Positions 14,218-45,695 of a DNA stretch of 64,000 nucleotides are shown piece after piece. The notes beneath the pieces are model-generated. The model was not told the origin of the DNA. It ran no database searches and worked only from the letters and a program-made list of their open reading frames with translations. Source of the DNA: an uncultured Sphingomonadales bacterium (lineage in GTDB: Bacteria > Pseudomonadota > Alphaproteobacteria > Sphingomonadales > Rhodothalassiaceae). Positions within the stretch are counted from its first letter, which is position 1, and each line of letters opens with the position of its first letter. Where the stretch lies: the NCBI GenBank assembly GCA_947499155.1, contig CANMND010000003.1:62001-126000 (forward strand), read 5' to 3'. The position numbers and the translations under genes were made by a program.

Positions 14218-16314
14218 ATGTCGTTAAACAAAGAGTGCGCATTAAAATATCTTCGTGACGCTATTGGCCGGGATGACGCACAATTCAAGGCTGGACAGTG
14301 GAAATCCATAAGTACTTTGGTAAATGACCGAAAAAGATCATTAGTTATTCAAAGTACTGGCTGGGGAAAAAGTATGGTGTATTTTACATCAACCAAGCTC
14401 TTAAGAGAACAAGGATGCGGCCCAACAATTGTGATATCGCCTCTTTTAGCGCTAATGCGAAATCAGGTGGAATCTGCCCAAAAACTTAATTTAAACGCAG
14501 TGACTCTGAATTCAACTAATACGAACCACCATGAGACAATTAAAAATAAGATACGTAAAAATGAAATTGACATACTATTACTATCACCAGAAAAATTGAA
14601 CAGTACTACATTCACTGAAGAATACTTAAGCCTTATCGCAAACAAGGTCGGACTGGTTGTCATTGATGAAGCGCACTGTATTTCTGATTGGGGGCATGAT
14701 TTTCGTCCCGATTATAAAAGAATCTCTCGAGTATTAAGCAGGCTTCCAAAAGGCATCCCCGTGCTCGCCACAACAGCGACTGCAAATAAAAGAGTCGAAA
14801 CAGATATTTTGGAGCAACTTGGGGAATGCACACAGATATCTCGGGGGCCATTGGCACGCCCCTCCCTTTCTCTGGACACAGTAAGAATCGATGATCCAGC
14901 AGCGCGGCTGGCTTGGCTTACCAAGAAAATTCGTAGTCTCAACTGTAGTGGGATAGTTTATGTTTTGACTCAGAGGGATGCTGAACGTGTTGCTGATTGG
15001 CTGGTACAGGAGGGCGTACAGGCCAAGCCTTACCATGGTGGTTTAAAGCAGGAACGAGAAGAGCTTGAAACGGCCCTAATTAACAACGAAATAAAGTGCT
15101 TAGTAGCCACAAGTGCCCTGGGTATGGGCTTTGATAAACCCGATCTTGGATTCGTCATTCACTATCAGGCACCTAATTCTGTAGTCCACTACTATCAGCA
15201 GGTTGGGCGCGCGGGACGTGGAATAAGCAAAGCCTATGGAATATTATTATATGGTGAGGAAGACGACCAGATACATCATTTCTTCCGCACGTCTGCCTTT
15301 CCACCAAAATGCCAAATACTGACGATTTTAAAGTACATAGAAGAATCTAAAAATGGCTTATCAGACAACGAGCTGAAATTAAGTCTCAATGTCCAAGACA
15401 GACACCTTAAAAGAATATTGGAATACTTGTCTGTTCAAGATCCTGCTCCAATTATTAAAAGAAATTCCAGATGGCTGCGCACACCGCATGAATTCGCTTT
15501 CAACAAAGAGTTAATCGAACACTTGACGAGAATTCGTGAATCTGAGTGGGAGGATATTCTTGAATACGGAAAAAAACAAAAGTGCTTGATGCAATTTTTG
15601 GGCGAAAAGCTTGATGACCCCCATGCCAAGACCTGTGGGAAGTGTTCCGTTTGTCTTAATAAGCCCTCTACTGAAAACGATTATGATAAGGAAACCTATA
15701 AAGCCGCCCTAATCTATCTGGGCTGTTCTGAAAATAAAATAGAACCACGTAAACAGTTTTCTAACCCAATGCTTGGCAAAGAATTTGGCGCTCTAAATTC
15801 CAAAATTCCTAAAAATCAACAAGCTGGAACCGGATATTGTCTATCCCGCTATGGCGAACCAGTTATTGGAAAACTTGTGAAGGAAGGCAAAATCGGAGGT
15901 CGGTTTAACCAAGAACTTGTGACCGCATCCGCCAGAATGATTCAAAGTCGCTGGACAGATGCGAAAAGCATAGAATGGGTTACGTGCATTCCCTCTAAGC
16001 GACACCCTAAACTTGTGGCTGATTTTGCGGAACGCCTTGCAATAGCGCTGAAGCTGCCTTTTCACCCTGCACTGGAAAAGGTCCAGGATAGACGCCCGCA
16101 AAAAAAGATGGAAAATAGCCATTTTCAATGCAGCAATCTATTGGGTGCTTTTGAGGCTAATATTCCTGATGATTTTAAGGGTAAGGATGTGTTGCTCATA
16201 GATGATATAGTAGACTCACGCTGGACCCTCACAATTGCCGCTTACCTCTTGAGGAAACAAGGCGCAGGTTTGGTATTCCCGTTCGCGCTTGCTTCCTCCG
16301 CACCCGGTGATTAG
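14218..16314 (+). CDS. RecQ-family helicase fused to a phosphoribosyltransferase-like domain
   Basis: A 698-residue fusion. Residues 1-480 form a RecQ helicase: Walker A QSTGWGKS near 45, DEAHCISDWGHDFRPDY near 149, QQVGRAGRG near 330, and RecQ zinc-binding cysteines around 455-480 (KCLMQF then CGKCSVC). Instead of HRDC domains, residues ~585-690 look like a type I phosphoribosyltransferase of ComF/Apt type: WVTCIPSKRHPKLV and VLLIDDIVDSRWTLT, the PRPP-loop equivalent with the acidic pair at 662-663. The gene is AT-rich (e.g. 16 G/C in 14521-14580) against GC-rich neighbours, so it was probably acquired. The DprA-like gene follows 10 nt downstream, recalling the PRTase/DprA pairing of ShosTA defence systems. 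Confidence 0.85.
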   Translation: MSLNKECALKYLRDAIGRDDAQFKAGQWKSISTLVNDRKRSLVIQSTGWGKSMVYFTSTKLLREQGCGPTIVISPLLALMRNQVESAQKLNLNAVTLNSTNTNHHETIKNKIRKNEIDILLLSPEKLNSTTFTEEYLSLIANKVGLVVIDEAHCISDWGHDFRPDYKRISRVLSRLPKGIPVLATTATANKRVETDILEQLGECTQISRGPLARPSLSLDTVRIDDPAARLAWLTKKIRSLNCSGIVYVLTQRDAERVADWLVQEGVQAKPYHGGLKQEREELETALINNEIKCLVATSALGMGFDKPDLGFVIHYQAPNSVVHYYQQVGRAGRGISKAYGILLYGEEDDQIHHFFRTSAFPPKCQILTILKYIEESKNGLSDNELKLSLNVQDRHLKRILEYLSVQDPAPIIKRNSRWLRTPHEFAFNKELIEHLTRIRESEWEDILEYGKKQKCLMQFLGEKLDDPHAKTCGKCSVCLNKPSTENDYDKETYKAALIYLGCSENKIEPRKQFSNPMLGKEFGALNSKIPKNQQAGTGYCLSRYGEPVIGKLVKEGKIGGRFNQELVTASARMIQSRWTDAKSIEWVTCIPSKRHPKLVADFAERLAIALKLPFHPALEKVQDRRPQKKMENSHFQCSNLLGAFEANIPDDFKGKDVLLIDDIVDSRWTLTIAAYLLRKQGAGLVFPFALASSAPGD

Positions 16315-16324
16315 ATCATTTGCC

Positions 16325-17302
16325 ATGAACAAGCTGTCCGAAGATACTGAAGTGATTCTTTTACTATGCTGCAGGTTGCCGGCAAACGTCGCTGCGTCCG
16401 AGTTGGCAAAGCCGCTATCCCATCAAGAATATGTTACACTTGCCAAATGGCTGTTACGCAGAGGACTAAGCCCCAAAGACCTATTAGGTCAGCGATTTAG
16501 TCAACATTCCGAAGCTCTCGAACAGGCTGATTTTGATATAAAAAGATTGCGCAACCTTTTGGGGAGGGGAGTTTTATTATCTTTTGCACTGGAGCGTTGG
16601 GACAGGTCCGGCATTTGGATTCTATCACGAGCTGACGCAACATACCCAAAGCGGTTTAAAAGAATACTGGGCCAAAAAGCCCCTGCAATTTTATATGGCG
16701 CTGGAAATGCCGATGCTCTTGACACTGGCGGCCTTGGGGTAGTCGGTTCAAGGGATATTTCTCCTGATGTGGAGGAATTCGTCTCACGCCTCGCCAGAGA
16801 TTCTGCCATGCAAGGCGTGAATATCGTATCTGGCGGCGCAAGAGGGGTCGATACTATTGCTATGCGCTCTGCTGCCCGGGCTGGTGGAAGCGTCATTGGA
16901 ATTCTTGCAGATGGTCTGGCTAGATCCATCACGACCAAAAGCTCCAGAGAAGCAATAACCGCAGGCAAGCTAACGTTAATATCGCCATACACACCAGAAG
17001 CAGGCTTTAATGCTGGCAATGCCATGTCGCGAAATAAATTAATTTATGCGGCCTCCGATGCTGTGCTGGTGGCACAAGCAGAGAAAGATAGGGGCGGAAC
17101 ATGGAGTGGTGCCATAGAATCCCTGTGCAATGCATGGTCTCCCGTCTTGGTTCAAACAGAATATCCCTCTGATGGACTTGATGCCCTTTGTGAGCGCGGT
17201 GCCCAGCCATTTGCATATGAAAACAAAAACAGCATTGTCGATTATCTCCATTCTTTGCGAATTTCTGAAAATCAAGCCGCCGTGCAAGTTCAACTTTTAT
17301 AG
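16325..17302 (+). CDS. DprA/Smf-like Rossmann-fold protein
   Basis: About 325 residues with a DprA-type Rossmann domain: YPKRFKRILGQKAPAILYG precedes GVVGSRDIS near residue 138 and GGARGVDTIAMRSA near 170, with AMSRNKLIYAASDAVLVAQA later. DprA proteins bind single-stranded DNA and load RecA during transformation; truncated or divergent DprA relatives also act as antitoxins in ShosTA modules. Here it follows the RecQ-PRTase gene by 10 nt and shares its low GC, so I read it as that gene's partner rather than the housekeeping dprA. The frame is open upstream to 16289, which would overlap the helicase gene; the ATG at 16325 is preferred. Confidence 0.82.
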   Translation: MNKLSEDTEVILLLCCRLPANVAASELAKPLSHQEYVTLAKWLLRRGLSPKDLLGQRFSQHSEALEQADFDIKRLRNLLGRGVLLSFALERWDRSGIWILSRADATYPKRFKRILGQKAPAILYGAGNADALDTGGLGVVGSRDISPDVEEFVSRLARDSAMQGVNIVSGGARGVDTIAMRSAARAGGSVIGILADGLARSITTKSSREAITAGKLTLISPYTPEAGFNAGNAMSRNKLIYAASDAVLVAQAEKDRGGTWSGAIESLCNAWSPVLVQTEYPSDGLDALCERGAQPFAYENKNSIVDYLHSLRISENQAAVQVQLL

Positions 17303-39710: not shown

Positions 39711-39826
39711 AAAAAAGCACGACGGGCTTGTGACCCGCCGTGCCTCCCCAATTAAGGGATTTTGTGCACTTTAAAGTGCTTGTTAACGGGTGGCTCTCAA
39801 TTCCTGAGCGGCTAAACTCTGATTAC
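39711..39826 (-). ncRNA. tracrRNA of the type II-C CRISPR system
   Basis: The minus strand at 39782-39818 is complementary to the CRISPR repeat: 25 of 27 bases match over the CTCAATTCCTGAGCGG core side, with a bulged upper part, as expected of an anti-repeat. Downstream lie a perfect hairpin GCACTTTAAAGTGC (39766-39779) and a terminator hairpin 39717-39743 followed by TTTTTT (39711-39716). A consensus TTGACA is found on the minus strand at 39859-39864 but with a poor -10, so the 5' end is approximate. It is divergent from cas9. Confidence 0.85.
39717..39743 (-). terminator. tracrRNA terminator
   Basis: A ten-base-pair stem with one mismatch and a seven-base loop; the minus strand continues with six T residues. 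Confidence 0.85.
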
Positions 39827-39964: not shown

Positions 39965-42900
39965 ATGACCTATCGTCTCGGATTTGACATGGGATCCAAT
40001 TCCCTTGGCTGGTGCGCCGTCCGTTTGGACAGTGACGGGGAACCGATCGACGTGCTTGATGCGGGCGTCCGAATACTGACGCCCAATGACGAAGCGGGCA
40101 AAGACCCACAATCGAAAGCATCCCTTGCCGCCAACAGGCGCGAGAAGCGTTCAGCCAGAAAACGCCGCGACCGTTTTCTTCGCCGCCAACAGCGCCTGAT
40201 GGAGCTTTTGATCAAGCACGGCCTGATGCCACAGGACAAGACTGCACGGAAAGAGCTGGAAAAGCTCGACCCCTATGTCTTGCGGGCCGAGGGCGTGACC
40301 AAGCCCTTGCCACCCCATGAATTCGGGCGGGCGCTGTTTCACATCAACCAGCGGCGCGGTTTTAAATCAAACCGCATTACCGATGCGGACGACACCGAAA
40401 AGGGAGCCGTCGCCGCCGGGAATAAAGCGCTGCAAGAGGCCCTTGAAAGCGAGGAAACCAGGCCCAAAAAAACCCTTGGTCAATTTCTTGCTGAACGCCA
40501 CAACCGCGACAGATACGGCAAGCGCACAAAGGATACGGTTATCCAGCCTGTACGCTTTCGACCCCGGACTGTGGGATCGAAAAATCTTTATGACCTTTAT
40601 CCGACACGCCAGATGACCGAGGAGGAAATTGACCGCTTGTGGGAAAAGCAATCACAAACAAACCCTGCCCTCACCGATGACCTGTTGACAAAAATCAAGC
40701 GCGTCATCGTTGATCAAAGACCATTGGAAAAGCCACTGGTGGGCAAGTGCACCTTCAATCCCAAAGAAGACCGTGCGCCAAGGGCCCTGCCCTTGTTCCA
40801 GCGCTACCGGATTTTGACAGAGACCGCCAATCTGATAGTGGAACTGCCCGGTGTTTCCAGACGCCCAATCAGCAAATCAGAGCAGAAATTGCTGGTGGGA
40901 TTATTGTGCCAGCGCGCCAGTACGGTGGATTTTACAACCCTGCGAAAGGCGCTGAAACTGCCTGATGAGGCAACGTTCAATCTTGAGCATGGCAAGCGCA
41001 AGGGCCTTGATCCCGACCTGACAGCCGCAAGGCTTGCCAACAAAAATATTCTGGGCAAGGCGTGGCGCGAAATCCCCATTAAGCGTCAAAATGAAATCGT
41101 CAAAAGTCTGCTGAATGAGGAGGACGAGGCAAAGCTGATCAGCTGGCTGACCGATGAGATGGGCTTTGATGAAGAGACCGCCACCAAAATGAGCGGCGCG
41201 CGTCTGCCACAGGGCCACGGCCATCTGGGAGAGACGATTCTTGGCCAGCTTGTGGAGGTGCTGGAGACTGACTCGACTGACTGTCCAGACCCCCAGACCG
41301 GTGAGATTTATGCACGGCCCCTTACCTATGACGAAGCGGTCAAAAGCATTGGCCACCACCATTCCGACATGAGCCCCAATGGGTTGCTGGCAGAACTGCC
41401 CTATTATGGCGATATCCTGCCGCGCCATGTCATTCAAAATCCCGACGCCCCGGAAACCAGCCAGGATTATCGCGGGCGGGTGCCCAATCCCACGGTTCAT
41501 ATTGCGCTTAATCAATTGCGGCAGGTGCTGAACTGCCTGATTCGCACCTATGGGCCACCTGCGGCCATCAACATTGAACTGGCCCGCGGATTAAAGCAGA
41601 GCCAAAAACAAAAAGACGAACAGACAAAAGCCAACCGTCAGAACGAAAAGGCCCGTGACGAATACCGGAAAATTCTGGATGAACTCGGCATGCCGGATAC
41701 CCATGGCAACATGCTGCTTTTGCGGCTTTTTCACGAGCTTCCGCCCGACGGACGTATCTGCGTTTATAGTGGCACGTCCCTGTCTATGGCCATGCTGACC
41801 ACGGGTGAGGTTGAAATTGACCATATCCTGCCCCGTTCACGGACGCTGGACGACAGTTTCATGAACAAGGTGCTGTGTACCCGCGCTGCCAACCGGGAAA
41901 AAGGCAACCGCGCCCCGGCAGAGGCGTGGTCCGGACAGAAACTGGCGGAAATTCACGCCCGCGCCAAACTGCTGTTGCCCAAAAAAGCCTGGCGCTTTGC
42001 CCCTGACGCCATGGAGCGGTTCGAGCGTGAAGGCGGCTTTTTGGAAAAGCAGTTGAAAGATACCCAGCACATGTCACGGCTGGCAAAAACTTATCTGGAG
42101 CATGTTTGCAAGGATGTCTTTGCTACACCGGGCAGGCTGACAGCCATGCTGCGCGGCAAATGGGGCCTTAATCGCCTGTTGCATGATCATAATCTGCACG
42201 GGGATGAGGCCCCCAAGCAGCGCAATGACCATCGCCATCATGCCATTGATGCCTTTGTCATTGCCTGCACTACCCGATCCCTATTGAACAGATTGTCTGC
42301 TGCGTCTGCACGCGCCGAATCGCTGCAACTGGACCGCTTTGCCCCCAGTGGCGAATTCCCCGACCCCTTCGATGGCTTTCGGGAACAGTTGAAAGCCCGT
42401 CTCGACACCATGATCATCAGCCACAAGCCTGATCATGGCATTGAAGGCCAGTTGCACGAGGAAACCGCCTATGGCGTGGTGGATGAAGAGATTGACGGCA
42501 AGCGGTTCAATCTGGTTGTACGCAAAAATATCGACAGCCTGACGGAAAAAATGGTCTGGCAGGTGCGGGACCAGACACTGCGCGAGGATCTGATCGCAGT
42601 GGTGGAAGAAGCAAAATACGCCACCACACAGGAGTACCGCGATACCGGCCAGAAGATCTCGGCCAATGACGTCAAAAAGGCCATAGCCACTGCCTTGGCC
42701 GACTATGGCCAGCGACACAATATCCGCCGCGTGCGCGTCCTGATGACGAAACAAGGGGTGCGCGTGATTGAACACGGCCCGGATGATCTGCCCGCCTACA
42801 AAAAATACAACAAAGCCTATGTGCCCGGCGGCAATTATAAGATAGAATTTTATGAGCATCCAAGTGGCAAGCTATTGAGCAAAAACTATACATATTTTGA

Positions 42901-43216
42901 CGCCAATAGGATGAAACTAGGCCAGAAAAATGGAAATATAATTACAGAAAGCAAACAAGAATCAGAGGCGAGATTACTTGTAACTCTTCATAAAGGAGAT
43001 ACAATAGAGGCTTGCATACAAGGAAGAAAAGGGCTTTTTATAGTTAGAAAGCTTGATCCAACTAATAATCGTATATACTGCGTCCCACAATATTACGCGG
43101 GCAAAGTAGATGATAAAATTTACATACAGGTTAGCTTTTCCAAATTCCGCGAATATAATCTAAAGCGAGTCAATGTAGATCCCATCGGACGGTTCAAGTA
43201 CCGGGAAGGATCCTGA
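39965..43216 (+). CDS. cas9: CRISPR-associated endonuclease Cas9, type II-C
   Basis: A 1083-residue Cas9 (ATG 39965 after a G-rich site). RuvC-I GFDMGSNSLGW with Asp8; Arg-rich bridge helix about 57-78; RuvC-II NIELARG with Glu538; HNH IDHILPRS with His620 and the NKVL...N motif; RuvC-III HHAIDAF with His759 and Asp762. All catalytic residues are present, so it should cut both strands. Length and absence of csn2 and cas4 fit subtype II-C. The C-terminal coding part about 42840-43180 (residues ~960-1070, much of the PAM-interacting domain) is AT-rich, unlike the GC-rich rest, suggesting replacement. cas1 begins 2 nt after the stop. Confidence 0.97.
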   Translation: MTYRLGFDMGSNSLGWCAVRLDSDGEPIDVLDAGVRILTPNDEAGKDPQSKASLAANRREKRSARKRRDRFLRRQQRLMELLIKHGLMPQDKTARKELEKLDPYVLRAEGVTKPLPPHEFGRALFHINQRRGFKSNRITDADDTEKGAVAAGNKALQEALESEETRPKKTLGQFLAERHNRDRYGKRTKDTVIQPVRFRPRTVGSKNLYDLYPTRQMTEEEIDRLWEKQSQTNPALTDDLLTKIKRVIVDQRPLEKPLVGKCTFNPKEDRAPRALPLFQRYRILTETANLIVELPGVSRRPISKSEQKLLVGLLCQRASTVDFTTLRKALKLPDEATFNLEHGKRKGLDPDLTAARLANKNILGKAWREIPIKRQNEIVKSLLNEEDEAKLISWLTDEMGFDEETATKMSGARLPQGHGHLGETILGQLVEVLETDSTDCPDPQTGEIYARPLTYDEAVKSIGHHHSDMSPNGLLAELPYYGDILPRHVIQNPDAPETSQDYRGRVPNPTVHIALNQLRQVLNCLIRTYGPPAAINIELARGLKQSQKQKDEQTKANRQNEKARDEYRKILDELGMPDTHGNMLLLRLFHELPPDGRICVYSGTSLSMAMLTTGEVEIDHILPRSRTLDDSFMNKVLCTRAANREKGNRAPAEAWSGQKLAEIHARAKLLLPKKAWRFAPDAMERFEREGGFLEKQLKDTQHMSRLAKTYLEHVCKDVFATPGRLTAMLRGKWGLNRLLHDHNLHGDEAPKQRNDHRHHAIDAFVIACTTRSLLNRLSAASARAESLQLDRFAPSGEFPDPFDGFREQLKARLDTMIISHKPDHGIEGQLHEETAYGVVDEEIDGKRFNLVVRKNIDSLTEKMVWQVRDQTLREDLIAVVEEAKYATTQEYRDTGQKISANDVKKAIATALADYGQRHNIRRVRVLMTKQGVRVIEHGPDDLPAYKKYNKAYVPGGNYKIEFYEHPSGKLLSKNYTYFDANRMKLGQKNGNIITESKQESEARLLVTLHKGDTIEACIQGRKGLFIVRKLDPTNNRIYCVPQYYAGKVDDKIYIQVSFSKFREYNLKRVNVDPIGRFKYREGS

Positions 43217-43217
43217 C

Positions 43218-44141
43218 ATGTACCCGCGCATTGTGGAAATCGCACAGGACAACCGGCATCTGTCGAAATACCGGGGCTTTCTGCTGGTCCATGAAGACAA
43301 GACAGAGCTGGCGCGGGTACCTTTGGATGATGTGGCGGCCCTGATTACCAGCGGCCATGGCATCACCGTATCCGCCAATCTGATAAGTGCCCTGGCCGAA
43401 CGGGGTGCGGCCTTTGTCTGTTGTGGATCCAATCACATGCCCACAGCGTTTTTATGGCCTGCAGACAGCCATTATCAGCAATCGGGCCGCATCCGGGATC
43501 AGGTGGCGGCCAGCAAGCCTCTAAAGAAACGCCTGTGGAGCCAGATTGTCTCGGCGAAAATCCGCCATCAGGGCGAAATCCTCGTCTCTCTTGGCCGCCC
43601 GGACCAGAATATCCTGCTGATGGCGCGGGGTGTGCGCTCTGGTGACCCCGATAATATGGAAGCGCAAGCCGCCCGCCGTTATTGGCCAGCCCTGTTCGGC
43701 GATGATTTCCGCCGTGACCGCACCGAGGCCGGCATCAACGCCATGCTGAACTATGCCTATGCGGTGCTGCGCGCCGGCACCTCCCGCGCCATCATGGGGG
43801 CGGGGCTTCATCCATCTCTCGGCCTGAACCACAGCAATCGCAACAACAGTTTTTTACTGGTGGATGATCTGATGGAGCCCTTCCGTCCCATTGCCGACCG
43901 GCTGGTGAAACAGCTTGTGGATGAGGGTGCAGATGGGGTGGAGCCACAAACCAAGCGGGCCATGGCGGCGCTCCTTGCAACAGACCTCAGCACTGACGAA
44001 GGGGTAAGCCCGCTTTTTCTGTGTCTCGAACGGTTGGCGTGGTCACTGGCCTGGTGTTTCAGTGGTGAAGCCCAAAAGCTTGAGATCGCGCGTCCGGCCC
44101 TGCCCTTGGAGTCGGGGCCACTGGACAGGGGGCCATCATGA
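43218..44141 (+). CDS. cas1: CRISPR adaptation endonuclease Cas1 (type II)
   Basis: A 307-residue Cas1 integrase. The catalytic triad is Glu148 (DNMEAQAARRYW), His205 (LHPSLGLNH) and Asp217 (LLVDDLMEPFRP). With Cas2 it inserts new spacers into the array. Starts one base after the cas9 stop and overlaps cas2 by 4 nt, so cas9-cas1-cas2 is one operon. Intact, so adaptation is plausible. Confidence 0.97.
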   Translation: MYPRIVEIAQDNRHLSKYRGFLLVHEDKTELARVPLDDVAALITSGHGITVSANLISALAERGAAFVCCGSNHMPTAFLWPADSHYQQSGRIRDQVAASKPLKKRLWSQIVSAKIRHQGEILVSLGRPDQNILLMARGVRSGDPDNMEAQAARRYWPALFGDDFRRDRTEAGINAMLNYAYAVLRAGTSRAIMGAGLHPSLGLNHSNRNNSFLLVDDLMEPFRPIADRLVKQLVDEGADGVEPQTKRAMAALLATDLSTDEGVSPLFLCLERLAWSLAWCFSGEAQKLEIARPALPLESGPLDRGPS

Positions 44142-44515
44142 AAAGGCAATCGAAAAAAGACAAGTCGGCCAAATGGCCACGTGCAACCTCAATGAGTGGA
44201 TTCAGGATGATGTGGTTATATGTGATGTTCGATCTGCCAACCGTGACCAAAAAAGAACGCAAGAGTGCTGCGCGCTTTCGCAAGGATTTGCTCGACCTTG
44301 GTTTTCAAATGGCGCAATATTCCGTTTACATGCGCTTTTGTGATGGCAAGGTCACGGCTGAAACTTATATCGGAAAGATCGAGCAGGCCCTGCCAAATCA
44401 GGGACGCGTCCATATCCTGACTGTCACCGACAAGCAGATAGAAAACGCCCGCATATTCATAGGAACAAGGCAAGAACGGTCGCCAAAAAACCCGGACCAA
44501 CTGGTACTTTTATGA
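44138..44515 (+). CDS. cas2: CRISPR adaptation protein Cas2
   Basis: A 125-residue Cas2 with ferredoxin-like fold. The first strand is WLYVMFDLPTVTKKERK with the conserved Asp32, followed by FRKDLLDLGFQMAQYSVYMR. It has an N-terminal basic extension of ~20 residues if the overlapping ATG at 44138 is used; a later ATG at 44192 would remove it. Partner of Cas1 in spacer capture. Confidence 0.95.
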   Translation: MKRQSKKDKSAKWPRATSMSGFRMMWLYVMFDLPTVTKKERKSAARFRKDLLDLGFQMAQYSVYMRFCDGKVTAETYIGKIEQALPNQGRVHILTVTDKQIENARIFIGTRQERSPKNPDQLVLL

Positions 44516-44588: not shown

Positions 44589-45612
44589 AGTATAGCCGCT
44601 CAGGAATTGAGAACCAACCGCAACAACAACATATGTTAAATTACTGATTCGTGTAGTATAGCCGCTCAGGAATTGAGAACCAACCGCAACCCGGGCGGCA
44701 AGACAGCGCTGCGATATCAAAGTATAGCCGCTCAGGAATTGAGAACCAACCGCAACGTGCTCAGCAATAGCGTCCACATGGGCTTGAGTATAGCCGCTCA
44801 GGAATTGAGAACCAACCGCAACATGACCTCGCGGCTGGTCTCTCTGCTCTCTAGTATAGCCGCTCAGGAATTGAGAACCAACCGCAACGAATGACGTGAG
44901 ATCATACGCTCAATCACAAGTATAGCCGCTCAGGAATTGAGAACCAACCGCAACGGGCAGCGCTCGCTCTCCCCGGATTTTAGTAGTATAGCCGCTCAGG
45001 AATTGAGAACCAACCGCAACCTGTCCACAGCAATCATGGAAGACGATGCAGTATAGCCGCTCAGGAATTGAGAACCAACCGCAACTTGACCACCATCAGT
45101 AGGGGTCGGGGGGGAAGTATAGCCGCTCAGGAATTGAGAACCAACCGCAACTGGCAGCGGTGGGCGGATATCTGGCGTTCAAGTATAGCCGCTCAGGAAT
45201 TGAGAACCAACCGCAACCGAGCTATACCACCAGCGACGCAAGACACGAGTGTAGCCGCTCAGGAATTGAGAACCAACCGCAACTGTAGTACTCATCCAAC
45301 TCGGCTTTAGTGAGTATAGCCGCTCAGGAATTGAGAACCAACCGCAACAAGTGGCTCCCGGCGATCATGAGAGACGATAGTATAGCCGCTCAGGAATTGA
45401 GAACCAACCGCAACTGGTGGACGCTCTGGGCGGGCTGGCGCAGCAGTATAGCCGCTCAGGAATTGAGAACCAACCGCAACCAGGCCGTGTGGCGAACTGC
45501 GACCAGGCGCAGTATAGCCGCTCAGGAATTGAGAACCAACCGCAACCTCCTCCTCAACCAGTTCCAACTCCTCCTCAGTATAGCCGCTCAGGAATTGAGA
45601 ACCAACCGCAAC
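44589..45612 (-). CRISPR. CRISPR array, 16 repeats and 15 spacers (type II-C)
   Basis: Repeats of 36 nt begin on the plus strand with AGTATAGCCGCTCAGG and end with ACCAACCGCAAC. Starts: 44589, 44655, 44721, 44787, 44853, 44919, 44985, 45050, 45116, 45182, 45248, 45313, 45379, 45445, 45511, 45577. Spacers are 30 nt, except those at 45021 and 45284, which are 29. Only the repeat at 45248 differs by eye (AGTGTA in place of AGTATA). Transcription on the minus strand is supported by complementarity to the tracrRNA, by promoter-like elements inside the repeat, and by the leftward terminator at 44551. Confidence 0.99.
45577..45605 (-). promoter_or_regulatory. Intra-repeat promoter (shown for the rightmost repeat, present in each)
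   Basis: Read on the minus strand the repeat contains TTGGTT, 17 bases, then TATACT at its very 3' end, so transcription would start in the adjacent spacer. The same arrangement is known from Neisseria meningitidis II-C repeats. In the variant repeat at 45248 the -10 becomes TACACT. Confidence 0.65.
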
Positions 45613-45695
45613 GAAGCGTGCGGGGCTGGCGATGCTGGACGGCGCAGGGAATCCAAAAATAGACTTGATCCAGTTTAGAATATATAGCTGGCCTG

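Follow-up and report, generated by a model that had tools for sequence, protein, structure and literature searches.

A sharply bounded AT-rich segment in a type II-C Cas9 suggests exchange of its PAM-interacting part

Introduction

Near its 3' end, the cas9 gene in the 64,000-nucleotide stretch of DNA analysed here (the window), from an uncultured bacterium of the Rhodothalassiaceae, turns AT-rich for about 350 bases. The PAM is read by the C-terminal domain of Cas9, and a sequence-only reading of this DNA had proposed that the tail was replaced by recombination with a distant Cas9, changing PAM choice while the nuclease, guide and adaptation genes were kept. The locus raises the question of where this segment came from, and whether its composition records an exchange of the part of the enzyme that reads the PAM.

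A plain type II-C locus

The cas9 gene (39965-43216, plus strand) encodes a protein of 1083 amino acids that matches the NCBIfam model TIGR01865 (E 1.4e-181, 606 bits) and carries the Pfam domains HNH_4, RuvC_III and Cas9_a above their cut-offs. RuvC and HNH nuclease domains occur together with an alpha-helical lobe, and the chain is thus a type II CRISPR-Cas9; the folds nearest to its AlphaFold2 model include Nme1Cas9, GeoCas9 and HpaCas9. One base separates the stop of cas9 from the start of cas1 (43218-44141, plus strand; TIGR03639, E 3.9e-72), which is followed by cas2 (44138-44515, plus strand; TIGR01573, E 1.9e-19). These three are the only cas genes at 39965-44515, with neither csn2 nor cas4. 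The CRISPR array (44589-45613, minus strand) has 16 repeats of 36 nt and spacers of 29-30 nt, its minus-strand crRNA sense being suggested by a minus-strand anti-repeat. That anti-repeat (39822-39793) opens a probable tracrRNA, read from sequence at 39712-39822 on the minus strand, and is followed by a hairpin and a T-run terminator. Within 39793-39822 the anti-repeat TCTCAATTCCTGAGCGGCTAAACT (plus-strand reading) pairs with the CRISPR repeat, as judged by eye rather than by a model score, and the probable tracrRNA at 39712-39822 matched no Rfam family. Taken together, the probable tracrRNA, cas9, cas1, cas2 and array form a plain type II-C system.

A cas9 of this kind is present in two of the seven genomes of the bacterial family. 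In a search for an empty site within the same genus, genomes G001 and G002 yielded the left flank, the right flank turned up in pieces on other contigs only, and no empty site was shown. Comparison of the array spacers with phages and plasmids gave chance-level matches only, and two seed scans of viral contigs returned either 8-10 mismatches or nothing; since no protospacers were found, no PAM was inferred. Two pairs of spacers at 44986-45445 resemble each other, spacers 7 and 12 (CAATCATGGAAGACGAT and CGATCATGAGAGACGAT) and spacers 9 and 13 (both of a TGG...TGGCG type), as if each pair had been acquired from homologous sites of related phages. The crRNA-sense repeat of the array (minus strand, 44589-45613) terminates in TATACT, a -10-like box that would suit promoters embedded in the repeats, as in the II-C arrays of Neisseria.

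The AT-rich segment lies within the PAM-interacting part

To set the limits of the segment, we fitted by likelihood a single segment with two breakpoints and a GC3 of its own. The best segment spans residues 957-1072 (42833-43180, plus strand), with GC3 of 0.29 compared to 0.64 outside it (lnL gain 25.4) and 2-lnL support intervals of residues 955-988 and 1037-1076 for the two change-points. The shift near 42840 and return near 43180 that had been read by eye were therefore correct to within a few codons, and the accompanying G/C counts (86 of 240 at 42901-43140, 39 of 60 at 42301-42360) are exact, the latter interval being a GC-rich pick from a cas9 body (39965-42832) that averages 55.6% GC. 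All three codon positions are affected, with GC of 0.46/0.30/0.30 at positions 1/2/3 in the segment compared to 0.62/0.40/0.64. ATA, AGA and AAT codons are enriched as had been noticed, and so is GTA; ATA alone accounts for 7 of the 116 codons in the segment and 3 of the 956 elsewhere in cas9. The encoded protein has a FYMINK fraction of 0.40, against a median of 0.26, and in this resembles Cas9s of AT-rich genomes. The lowest-GC 240 bp of the whole window falls in the cas9 tail, and the last 11 codons of the gene are GC-rich again, also as first read. Alignment and the GC3 fit together place a conserved motif at each end: KAYVPGGN (residues 950-957; 42812-42835, plus strand) at the 5' change-point and VDPIGR (residues 1071-1076; 43175-43192, plus strand) at the 3' change-point.

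To locate the segment in the fold, we used an AlphaFold2 model built from 36 aligned sequences (mean pLDDT 83.5), which follows Nme1Cas9 end to end over residues 1-1083. Its strands at 957-1071 make up a terminal beta-rich sub-domain whose limits match the change-points at 957 and 1072, so that the segment covers most of the PAM-interacting half of the C-terminal domain and is confined to it, in agreement with the location first proposed. Inside this sub-domain, alignments show that GQKNGNII (residues 986-993; 42920-42943, plus strand) contains an insertion of six residues, KNGNII, compared to the nearest subclade members, and the loop at 990-994 is poorly predicted in the model. By profile alignment, this loop region may correspond to the Q981 loop of Nme1Cas9, and KLDPTNNRIY (residues 1029-1038; 43049-43078, plus strand) is the putative counterpart of the Nme1Cas9 H1024-N1029 PAM-contact loop, an approximate match that extends the printed HpaCas9 alignment. 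In Nme1Cas9, Q981 and H1024-N1029 are crucial for PAM recognition, and exchange of PAM-interacting parts between II-C orthologs can yield working enzymes with other PAMs (PMC9433092). The segment probably reads a PAM different from that of the sister enzyme described below.

The segment is divergent as well as AT-rich

We compared the gene with relatives in a set of 119 aligned full-length Cas9s that includes the window's; a scan of genome contigs with an alignment gave 80 Cas9s. The GC3 tail drop of the window cas9 (-0.334) is the most extreme of the 119, lying 3.9 SD from the mean of the other 118 (mean -0.050, SD 0.073, lowest -0.237). Its sister, the Cas9 of Rhodothalassium salexigens (L090), has a GC3 tail difference of about +0.065 and shows no AT shift. 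The two proteins are 65% identical over residues 1-920 and only 32% over residues 959-1070. Among 90 pairs with 60-65% body identity, the segment averages 56% (SD 8), with the window-sister pair at the bottom. Between the sister's segment and those of the more distant L091, L092 and L093, identity is 42-44%, which indicates that the odd segment is the window's. No other segment among the 112 taxa is as orphaned as the window's when all partners are averaged, and the window's end branch is 7.0 times as long in the segment tree as in the body tree (median 1.13, next highest 3.2). Cas1 and Cas2, at 68% and 67% identity to the Rhodothalassium proteins, are in line with the Cas9 body, and the adaptation genes are thus ordinary, as the sequence-only reading had supposed.

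The trees of the two parts of Cas9 are congruent in giving the window the same sister. The body tree (residues 500-940) pairs the window with L090 as sisters at a support of 99, and the segment tree (residues 961-1066) pairs them again (98/80) and then adds L055 (96/86), with the window on the longest branch by far. Segment-only trees keep the window with the Rhodothalassium and G418 Cas9s (98/80). The halves of the segment disagree, however, the first grouping with L055 and the second joining the window and L090 as long branches, and long-branch joining of these two in the segment tree is possible. The proposal of a distant Cas9 as donor is not supported, since the segment tree keeps the body's sister and shows no source outside the subclade; the segment's position beside the Rhodothalassium Cas9 implies that any source would be an AT-rich Cas9 from within that subclade. 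One AT-rich member exists (L094, cas9 GC 0.39). The same AT-rich tail is not shared by the close relative, as the sister is GC-rich.

The tail was also used to look for a donor among 385 genomes from the class, 398 from the phylum, and 40, 17 and 11 from three further orders, as well as in plasmid, phage and IMG/VR collections; with this partial coverage of species, nothing better than the sister was found.

Origin of the segment

The account that we rank best, and consider moderately probable, is that the PAM-interacting segment was exchanged with its counterpart in some AT-rich Cas9 of the same subclade. The gene encodes an intact II-C Cas9; recombination within KAYVPGGN and VDPIGR, the conserved motifs on either side, would have brought in codons ~957-1072 from a subclade member missing from the collections searched, leaving the nuclease lobes, the WED part, cas1, cas2 and the guide RNAs as they were. 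We prefer this account because it explains the composition, the sharp limits at conserved motifs, the divergence and the intact neighbours together. Replacement of the tail by recombination, as originally suggested, is consistent with confinement to the segment, the GC-rich sister, the excess divergence and the breakpoints at conserved motifs; the distant source is not supported. Counted against exchange are the lack of a donor in the collections searched, the same sister in the segment tree, the commonness of AT-shifted tails in the family and the finding, detailed below, that such shifts do not accompany excess divergence across sister pairs.

The unchanged sister would also be expected if the segment were the lineage's own PAM-interacting part, inherited vertically, evolving very fast (for example under anti-CRISPR or PAM-escape pressure) and drifting to AT-rich codons. 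The window and its sister both lack the RH..DDDDP loop, and other pairs show fast C-terminal divergence with no compositional shift. Acceleration alone, however, should not cut GC3 from 0.64 to 0.29 between sharp boundaries and leave the neighbouring codons host-like, and the next highest branch ratio is less than half the window's, which leaves vertical descent unlikely in our view. Joining of two genomes by an assembly or binning error, for which we found no point in favor, is very improbable given a single unbroken frame within a contig of 505 kb, homology in register on both sides of the segment, and a genome that is 100% complete with 0.09% contamination.

The commonness of AT-shifted tails bears on a further alternative, in which AT-rich codons are selected at the 3' end of cas9 genes in general (through mRNA structure, coupling to cas1 or the composition of the PAM-interacting fold) and the window is an extreme case. 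A scan of the 119 cas9 genes for low-GC3 segments (lnL gain >8; shuffles gave 7.7 at 95% and a maximum of 9.4) found 27, of which 22 are centred on the last sixth of the gene (residues 900-1083). On average, the GC3 shift is -0.054 in the cas9 tails of relatives and +0.024 in those of the other genes at these loci (p 5e-9). The average effect is nevertheless much too small for the window, which stands far from the family mean beside a sister with no drop, and recurrent imports would produce this family trend as well, so that it cannot tell the two apart; we hold this alternative to be slightly less likely even than vertical descent. Either repeated import or some constraint acting on the tail may lie behind the trend, which makes composition by itself a weaker basis for inference. 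In 45 independent sister pairs, the difference in shift was uncorrelated with excess divergence (rho 0.03), and the AT shift alone was accordingly not taken as proof of exchange. The window-Rhodothalassium pair is the only one that is extreme in both composition shift and divergence.

The strongest low-GC3 segment of the scan belongs to L093 (residues 825-1053 in window numbering; GC3 0.45 compared to 0.80; lnL gain 54). This Cas9 (L093:5512-8784) comes from an alphaproteobacterial MAG, falls in the same subclade as the window's, and its segment spans the WED and PAM-interacting parts. As a tentative and rather doubtful extension of the exchange account, the PAM-interacting tail of alphaproteobacterial II-C Cas9s could be a cassette that is exchanged again and again and supplied by an AT-rich pool in circulation, with the window gene a recent capture and preferred breakpoints near residues 825, 940-957, 1005-1040 and the VDPIGR end.

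Comparison with known systems and other variable genes

The closest known system, that of Rhodothalassium salexigens DSM 2132 (L090) in the same bacterial family, shares with the window's the type II-C class, the order cas9-cas1-cas2-array, a similar repeat ending (CCAACCGCAAC), a short loop in the PAM-interacting part and the VDPIGR end; it differs in having a GC-rich C-terminus and no KNGNII insertion. The Neisseria meningitidis Nme1Cas9 and Nme2Cas9, which share the whole-chain fold (best Z 27), are II-C orthologs whose divergence is concentrated in the PAM-interacting part and which recognize different PAMs. Their PAMs were measured; in the window Cas9, the segment also carries a compositional mark. 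Literature searches on natural intragenic exchange of PAM-interacting parts returned orthology and engineering papers only, and no characterised Cas9 from this bacterial family was found. Divergence and exchange of the PAM-interacting part are known among Cas9 orthologs and used in engineering, and an exchange here would be one more natural case. If it took place, the window would hold a natural swap with a compositional footprint sharp enough for mapping, would reveal breakpoints tolerated in nature and, paired with the Rhodothalassium Cas9, could be used to measure a natural PAM change with the nuclease fairly constant. More widely, the clustering of low-GC3 segments in the PAM-reading tail of these cas9 genes is a testable sign of frequent exchange there.

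As a comparison within the same genome, a set of 237 genes with 250 codons or more was selected by ORF length in 464 kb of sequence. The internal GC3 dip of cas9 ranks fifth among them, and the four larger dips are all in Rhs proteins with variable C-terminal tips; for long genes in this sample, tail and body GC3 differ by a mean of +0.002 (SD 0.066). Outside the window, G000:C4:312-10402 (L186) holds a tandem series of six C-terminal Rhs fragments, in which the core is conserved and the tips are variable and AT-rich. These resemble cas9 in combining a conserved, host-like body and an AT-rich variable C-terminal end in one gene. The Rhs tips are unrelated domains, however, whereas the Cas9 segment and the sequence that it would have displaced are homologs, and in cas9, unlike the Rhs genes, GC-rich sequence returns before the stop.

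Other foreign-looking genes occur nearby. On the same contig, G000:C3:480-2714 (L182) encodes a membrane protein with pentapeptide-like repeats whose middle has a GC3 of 0.17. At 14218-17299 of the window, an AT-rich RecQ-like helicase with a C-terminal phosphoribosyltransferase-like part is followed by a DprA-like gene (both named by eye from translation); their codon usage is unlike that of the genome, and they may be a mobile or defence pair.
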